Source of the DNA: Nitrospinota bacterium
Lineage (GTDB): Bacteria; Nitrospinota; Nitrospinia; UBA9942; JAHJSF01
Direction of reading: 5' to 3'
DNA: 16,141 bases
Assembly (NCBI GenBank): GCA_018830405.1
Contig: JAHJSF010000049.1
Span: forward strand, 1-16,141
A program made the translations under genes and the position numbers. How positions within the stretch are numbered: the stretch's first letter is position 1; each line of letters opens with the position of its first letter. The notes under the pieces are model-generated. The model saw nothing but the letters and a program-made list of their open reading frames with translations, was not told where the DNA came from and searched no databases. Positions 6,815 through 7,988 of the stretch are shown piece by piece.

Positions 6815-7174
6815 CTACGACAATTCTGCCTTTATTTGGTCAGTATATTTTGCCCCGACCATACGTATCATACCCAAGGCGGTATCCTTATGGGCTACTA
6901 TAACAAGAATATGGTTTTTAGTTATCAGCTTGATATAAACATAGGCATCCTTGGCCTGCAGGATGGTTTCTTCAAGTTCCCCCCCCAATTCAGGCAAGTC
7001 GCGGCATATGTTTATTAGCAGCTTGGTACTCATGGCAAATCGTACCGCCAACTGTTTAATTTTTTCACCGGCAGTTACTTGGGCAATTTCAATGCCATCC
7101 ATTCCCTGGACTGATATGGCCATCATACCATCAATCTTGCCGGCCATTTCCGTTAAAATATCTTTTAGCGTCAT
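6815..7174 (-). CDS. Possible nested gene: free-standing roadblock/LC7 protein
   Basis: Codon 265 of the three-domain gene is an ATG (7172-7174) preceded by AAGGAGGT (7181-7188) at ideal spacing. Starting here would give a 119-residue protein, the usual size of a single-domain MglB-like roadblock protein, beginning MTLKDILTEM exactly at the domain edge. The site is at least as strong as any ribosome binding site in the window. It may make a second product, or it may be a relic of a once-separate gene that fused to the upstream receiver-PATAN gene. Production of the short form is not shown by sequence alone. Confidence 0.5.
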   Translation of the reverse strand: MTLKDILTEMAGKIDGMMAISVQGMDGIEIAQVTAGEKIKQLAVRFAMSTKLLINICRDLPELGGELEETILQAKDAYVYIKLITKNHILVIVAHKDTALGMIRMVGAKYTDQIKAELS

Positions 7175-7966
7175 TGGTTTACCTCCTTTTTTGTTATCAG
7201 ATGCCCTTTCAGTAGACAAGCCTTCCGTAGACGGCTTTTTAAATACATCCCCATCCAGCTCAAGAGATTTTTTATTCTTGTTATGAAGGGCTTCATCCTT
7301 TACTCTTGTCCCCTCCATAATTAATGAGATTAAAGACATCTTGATCTTCTTTTCTACCTTCTTTTTTGGATATGGTCTTATTTGTATATCGGTGTTATCG
7401 AGGGATAAAAGTGCAATGGCCGCCTCGTCTCCCGAGAGGTCGCCGTAGGAGGCATCCTCAAGCACCCCACCGTTAAAATAAAACTCGCCTCTCAATTCGC
7501 TCCCTTGCTTTATGGCCAGCAGGCATGTCTTTTGTTCCGTGTCTATCAATTGAAGAACATTTCCTACCGAAACATGCGTTAGGGAACCGGAGTCATTTTC
7601 TATTTCCAGCCCTTTGGCAATAAACCCCAAGACAGTTTGGGAATCAATCGGTCTTTGCAGTATGGCCACAGCCCTTTTATAATTGATATTGGCGGCCACG
7701 TTGGCCGGAACATCGGTTGAGGACATGGCAATAACTGGAATATTGGGATGGTTTGAGGCTAGGTAGGCAATTAACTCAACGCCGTCCATGATAGGCATTT
7801 CCATGTTGGTAATTACCAGATCTACCTCATTTGATTCGAGTATATTTATGGCCTCTTTACCGTTTTCGGCCTTTAAGAGATTGAACTTGTCTTTGCTGGC
7901 ATAGAGGTCTTTTAGAAAAGCGCATGGGTACTGCTTTTCATTATTAGCCAATAGAACATTCGGCAT
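6815..7966 (-). CDS. Pseudo-receiver–PATAN–roadblock/LC7 signalling protein
   Basis: This 383-residue cytosolic protein has three domains. Residues 1-112 form a CheY-like receiver. The phospho-acceptor position is Asn54 (DLVITNMEMP; codon AAC, 7805-7807), the usual acidic pair is Asn8-Asn9, and the conserved Lys is Arg105 (QRPID), so classical phosphorylation is unlikely. Residues ~115-215 match the PATAN/DUF4388 domain (GSLTHVSVGNVLQLI, ELRGEFYFNGGVLEDASYG). A low-complexity Lys/Ser linker (~216-264) leads to a roadblock/LC7 domain (265-383; MAISVQGMDGIEIA, QAKDAYVYIKLITKNHILVIVA), of the type found in MglB, which regulates small GTPases. The gene is monocistronic or leads weakly into tig, and is divergent from the pfkB-pil operon. 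It may act in polarity or pilus control, but this is inference. Met265 could also be an internal start. Confidence 0.88.
   Translation of the reverse strand: MPNVLLANNEKQYPCAFLKDLYASKDKFNLLKAENGKEAINILESNEVDLVITNMEMPIMDGVELIAYLASNHPNIPVIAMSSTDVPANVAANINYKRAVAILQRPIDSQTVLGFIAKGLEIENDSGSLTHVSVGNVLQLIDTEQKTCLLAIKQGSELRGEFYFNGGVLEDASYGDLSGDEAAIALLSLDNTDIQIRPYPKKKVEKKIKMSLISLIMEGTRVKDEALHNKNKKSLELDGDVFKKPSTEGLSTERASDNKKGGKPMTLKDILTEMAGKIDGMMAISVQGMDGIEIAQVTAGEKIKQLAVRFAMSTKLLINICRDLPELGGELEETILQAKDAYVYIKLITKNHILVIVAHKDTALGMIRMVGAKYTDQIKAELS
7181..7188 (-). promoter_or_regulatory. Strong internal ribosome binding site
   Basis: On the minus strand AAGGAGGT is followed by AAACCA and then ATG, in frame with the larger gene. 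It falls in the linker between the PATAN and roadblock domains. The resulting Lys-Gly-Gly-Lys-Pro residues are not needed by either domain fold, so selection for translation initiation is a reasonable explanation. Confidence 0.65.
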
Positions 7967-7988
7967 GAAGCCATCTCCCTTGATATTT

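Follow-up and report, generated by a model that had tools for sequence, protein, structure and literature searches.

Analysis of the window (the whole 16,141-nucleotide stretch of DNA studied) suggested that a single reading frame likely encodes two proteins, a regulator of REC–PATAN–roadblock architecture together with a free roadblock protein, with the inner start being the retained start of a formerly separate roadblock gene that became fused. Sequence comparison pointed to initiation at Met265, and the nested start is probably still used. The source genome was a draft assembly of 185 contigs that was 87% complete.

Domains and starts of the window gene

The earlier note on this DNA had described a Shine–Dalgarno (SD) sequence at good spacing before an in-frame ATG, such that the same locus holds a 383-residue three-domain frame and a nested frame of 119 residues. 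Both reading lengths were confirmed, as was the site itself, with the SD AAGGAGGT at 7188–7181 and the ATG at 7174–7172 separated by 6 nt. The features were as follows:

6815..7966, minus strand: REC–PATAN(DUF4388)–linker–roadblock gene, 383 aa (open reading frame, Pfam, and structure prediction)
7964..7979, minus strand: primary ATG (7966–7964) with a plain SD, GGGAG (7979–7975) (sequence)
7631..7909, minus strand: REC domain, residues 20–112 (Pfam PF00072, E = 3.7e-15)
7292..7591, minus strand: PATAN/DUF4388 domain, residues 126–225 (Pfam PF14332, E = 9e-11)
7181..7270, minus strand: disordered linker, residues 233–262 (pLDDT <50; stop-free in frame)
7181..7188, minus strand: internal SD AAGGAGGT (sequence; equivalents in paralogues)
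7172..7174, minus strand: internal ATG, Met265, 6 nt after AAGGAGGT (sequence; in frame)
6815..7174, minus strand: nested open reading frame for a putative stand-alone roadblock protein, 119 aa (MglC profile match, homologue in genome G333, and predicted topology)

The REC and DUF4388 matches both exceeded the Pfam cut-offs, with REC preceding DUF4388. The last codons of the linker hold the internal SD, which is followed by the spacer AAACCA and is a better match than the GGGAG of the primary start. The first predicted roadblock helix spans residues 267–277 and begins two residues past Met265, such that with the linker running to residue 262, Met265 is the natural first residue of the last domain. 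The start had been placed at the PATAN–roadblock boundary, and this holds for the roadblock end of the linker but not for the PATAN edge, as PATAN ends near residue 225. A run of eight G on the coding strand (eight C at window positions 6979-6986) was also observed inside the roadblock domain; slippage may occur there and would alter both forms.

Residues 265–383 scored 16.5 bits against the Pfam roadblock family, below the cut-off of 23, and their homologue in G333 passed the Robl_LC7 cut-off (26.3 bits). A profile combining the two sequences matched MglC (E = 7e-8), and on this sequence evidence the C-terminal domain of the window gene is assigned as a roadblock protein that is closest to MglC. 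The predicted helix-2 strands-helix-3 strands-helix topology of the same residues is that of the roadblock fold and agrees with this identity; the best structural matches of the model include MglC and roadblock chains.

Paralogues and homologues in other genomes

Three PATAN genes were identified in the genome, comprising the window gene and its paralogues on contigs C77 and C31 (below named by contig), and all three encode REC–PATAN–linker–roadblock proteins. An SD and ATG occur at the roadblock start in every one of them, with AAGGAGGTAAACATCATG in C77 and AAAGGAGATAAACATCATG in C31 preceding Met286 and Met284, respectively. The codon phase of the SD differs, being read as K-G-G in the window gene (KKGGKP-M) and as K-E in C77 and C31 (IKEVNI-M in C77), and this sharing of the SD nucleotides but not of the peptide argues against an accident of coding. 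The Pfam roadblock match of the C77 and C31 C-terminal domain was weak, and its structural model (pLDDT 75, pTM 0.74, TM about 0.7 to roadblock3 and MglB) predicts a roadblock fold.

Sequence identities among the paralogues indicated that modules have been exchanged at the linker–roadblock junction. C77 was 71% identical to the window protein over residues 1–235, while its roadblock domain was 82% identical to that of C31 and only 22% to that of the window gene; the overall identity between the C31 and window proteins was about 28%. At the DNA level, C77 and C31 were identical at 16 of 17 positions from SD to ATG compared to about 25–50% just upstream. The exchanged unit consists of SD, ATG, and roadblock domain, in other words a gene. 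C77 and C31 share one roadblock module and do not count as independent cases. None of the three linkers contained an in-frame stop (chance probabilities of 0.036, 0.007, and 0.003 for the individual genes), which implies that the long forms would also be made wherever the first start is active. The beginning of the C77/C31 module showed no clear excess of synonymous conservation.

C77 also carries an extra AAAGGAGG that was considered as a relic of the window gene's site and is not claimed as such, the linker alignment between the window gene and C77 being ambiguous near the SD. In addition, C77 contains a second in-frame AAAGGAGGG (L034:1800-1808, plus strand), located about 60 nt before the SD in use; it lacks a suitably spaced start codon and is possibly an older, dead start. 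Downstream of the fused genes of both C77 and C31, a small cysteine-rich open reading frame of about 60 aa with C..C and CSCPSWES motifs was conserved about 150 nt past the roadblock stop (L034:2426-2599, plus strand, and L035), with a perfect SD AAAGGAGGT on the C77 side.

Searches with a profile (A1) built from the three paralogues identified REC–PATAN proteins in many lineages, and three states were distinguished among these homologues: split, fused with a nested start, and fused without one. The split state was found in G333, where the REC–PATAN frame ends in TAG and is directly followed by a separate roadblock gene with its own SD AAAGGAGGAATAGATG, opening with CCAAAGGAGGAATAGATG and coding for a product 36% identical to the window roadblock (E = 1e-18). 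Fusions with a nested start were found in G105, G158, G391, G392, and G453 besides the three genes of this genome, with less certain cases in G424, G427, and a longer gene in G428. Examples of fusions lacking it included G136, G290, G212, G128, G388, and G390. Since high-GC genomes have upstream frames that are open by chance (e.g., L165), a fusion was accepted only with a REC–PATAN match, or a recognizable diverged one, in the same frame.

Several homologues connected the free and fused states of the same domain. In G388, a REC–PATAN–Robl1 gene precedes an unfused Robl2 gene (AAGGAGGCAAAATG), and in G105 a Robl2 homologue (56% identical to Robl2 of G388 and 21% to its Robl1) is fused to REC–PATAN with AAAGGAGGATAACATG kept before the domain. 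G316 has a separate Robl2 gene that is 53% identical to the C77 roadblock domain. Within the order to which G158 belongs, free and fused members of one roadblock family are intermingled in the tree. Fusion with a retained start seems, from these sequences, to have occurred several times. No close orthologues outside this genome were found in the phylum of the window (77 genomes; roadblock and PATAN queries), the C31 roadblock had no close match outside this genome among 195 relatives, and scans of genomes and viral contigs gave distant matches only, covering the receiver-domain region.

Further arrangements were recorded in these genomes. In G316 (L119:2405-3659, plus strand), the REC–PATAN frame overlaps Robl1 in a different frame ahead of the separate Robl2 gene, which reflects either a fusion with a frameshift or genes that are naturally split. 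Immediately upstream of REC–PATAN, both G316 (L119:439-1800, plus strand) and G105 (L090:2417-3676, minus strand) carry a gene for a sigma-54-type response regulator. G139 (L043:67-1830, plus strand) encodes a 460-aa protein with TPR-like repeats, a KKEEPKKEE linker, and a roadblock-like end; the next gene encodes a stand-alone roadblock-like protein, giving another fused and free pair.

Retained start, relic, or accident

The genome uses SDs, with a median pairing energy of −6.5 at gene starts (taken as the best of several candidates per gene) compared to −3.1 at internal ATGs. Five of 1468 internal ATGs reached −13 kcal/mol or better, including the window and C77 sites, such that a ranking on this energy alone places the internal SD of the window gene among the top few but does not single it out. 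On 40 contigs of the same genome (about 367 kb; C77 and C31 counted, the window gene left out), AAGGAGGT at proper spacing to an ATG was absent from all 290 gene starts and present once among 1400 internal in-frame ATGs, the sole internal occurrence being the paralogue C77. No strong RNA structure was found over the internal SD (z 0.8–1.4).

It is very improbable that AAGGAGGT merely reflects K-G-G coding in a lysine-rich linker with an unrelated methionine. A-rich linkers easily yield AAGGAG-like strings and the motif alone was not significant, as AAGGAGG-N4-9-ATG was seen twice within the window against 0.40 expected and 16 of 200 shuffles equaled it; however, the presence of the site in all three paralogues in different codon phases stands against such an accident, and in G333, G388, and G316 a gene truly begins at the homologous position. 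A test on 40 non-redundant REC–PATAN-X open reading frames from several lineages pointed the same way, with a six-base SD core at 4–10 nt found before 8 of 52 ATGs at the domain boundary and 0 of 264 elsewhere in the same frames (Fisher 3.3e-7; about 1e-4 from approximate counts without this genome), where the p-value is strong but not exact because the zone was chosen with the first cases already known and homologues lack independence. It is scarcely credible that an error of assembly or base calling in AAAAAAGGAGG joined two genes split as in G333. One added A in the A6 run would put the TAA of GGAGGTAAACC in frame just before the ATG, but C77 and C31 keep the frame although they have no such run, the linkers are hydrophilic and stop-free in frame, and in-frame fusions occur in several other genomes.

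A relic of recent fusions, in which SD and ATG were left behind and may allow some initiation while the short protein is unselected and will decay, is unlikely though a more serious alternative. Fused homologues without the site are common, and the fused-with-SD roadblocks of the G158 order adjoin stand-alone ones in the tree, as repeated recent fusions predict. Against this, the strong site has been kept in all three paralogues despite the low identity of the C31 protein to that of the window. The SD-to-ATG 12-mer of the G391 and G392 orthologues was 11/12 identical compared to 62% for the linker and 78% for the roadblock domain, a difference that is suggestive only. The stand-alone roadblock start that the earlier note proposed was well supported by comparison, through the three paralogues, the boundary enrichment, and the separate genes with an SD elsewhere, although it is not obligatory: many of the more distant fused homologues lack the site, so the nested start is optional and the short form dispensable in the family.

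The reading of a retained and still active start implies a sequence of events in which the roadblock gene would once have been a separate gene following a REC–PATAN gene, an arrangement still present in other bacteria, and would then have been fused to that gene in frame without losing its own ribosome binding site and start codon. The first start would give the 383-aa REC–PATAN–roadblock regulator and the inner SD–ATG the free roadblock of 119 aa. Roadblock proteins are dimeric, MglB and MglC being established cases, so a short form could bind to the roadblock domain of a long form and thereby set the number of REC–PATAN parts in a complex. Free roadblock subunits may thus pair both with the long protein and with each other, bringing the phosphorylatable REC–PATAN part into a roadblock complex at a chosen ratio, and such pairing of long with short forms, or tuning of dose, fits the family by analogy. 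The complex might act on an MglA-type small GTPase or on a polarity or pilus target. An MglB-like roadblock gene was observed directly before an MglA-like small GTPase gene on contig C20 of the same genome (L037:1860-2881, plus strand), and this pair is a plausible candidate partner of the roadblock proteins. Whether the nested start represents a convergent and recurrent dual-product system, in which different lineages fused the roadblock and kept its start for a mixed complex of fused and free subunits, is an evenly balanced question.

Comparison with known dual-product genes

No report of internal starts in roadblock proteins was found in the literature searched, and the suggestion that no such case had been described stands to that extent for this family; the general arrangement is known from Spa33/SpaO and endolysins. 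The nested frame would add a hidden protein, missed by annotation, to a poorly understood class of bacterial signaling proteins. Relatives with separate genes and relatives fused with a nested start provide a natural comparison for why free and fused copies of a dimerizing domain are both needed, and an SD kept at a domain boundary may serve as a simple sign for recognizing further fused genes from which two products are still made.

Fusions of Response_reg with Robl_LC7 have already been recorded (PMC4316618), and the C-terminal domain of the window gene is, like MglB and MglC (PMC4316618, PMC7949163), a roadblock domain, with MglC the closest by sequence. Unlike the window gene, MglB and MglC are described as stand-alone genes, and the relevant passages of these papers mention no nested start (PMC4316618, PMC7949163). 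Isoforms from internal starts are well known in bacteria, including CheA-short, CcmM-short, and other N-terminal proteoforms (PMC11005335), and the nested start is similar to these in-frame alternative starts of signaling or scaffold genes. CheA-short and CcmM-short belong to other families, and the sections of that source dealing with them discuss no origin by gene fusion (PMC11005335). In type II phage endolysins, an in-frame internal start likewise precedes the C-terminal domain and free copies assemble with the full-length protein (PMC12203907), although these are lytic enzymes with binding domains and not roadblock signaling domains.

The gene for the type III secretion C-ring protein Spa33/SpaO gives both the full-length protein and, through an internal start, its C-terminal domain, and the counterpart of the single-gene Spa33 is the pair of separate genes FliM and FliN (PMC6925163). 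Secretion requires the short product, which associates with the long one in a 1:2 ratio (PMC6925163). The two systems differ in that their domains are unrelated, Spa33C starts at GTG, and the roadblock short form, its complex with the long form, and a need for it are putative. They are alike in that one gene with an internal start, here and in Spa33/SpaO, corresponds to separate genes elsewhere.
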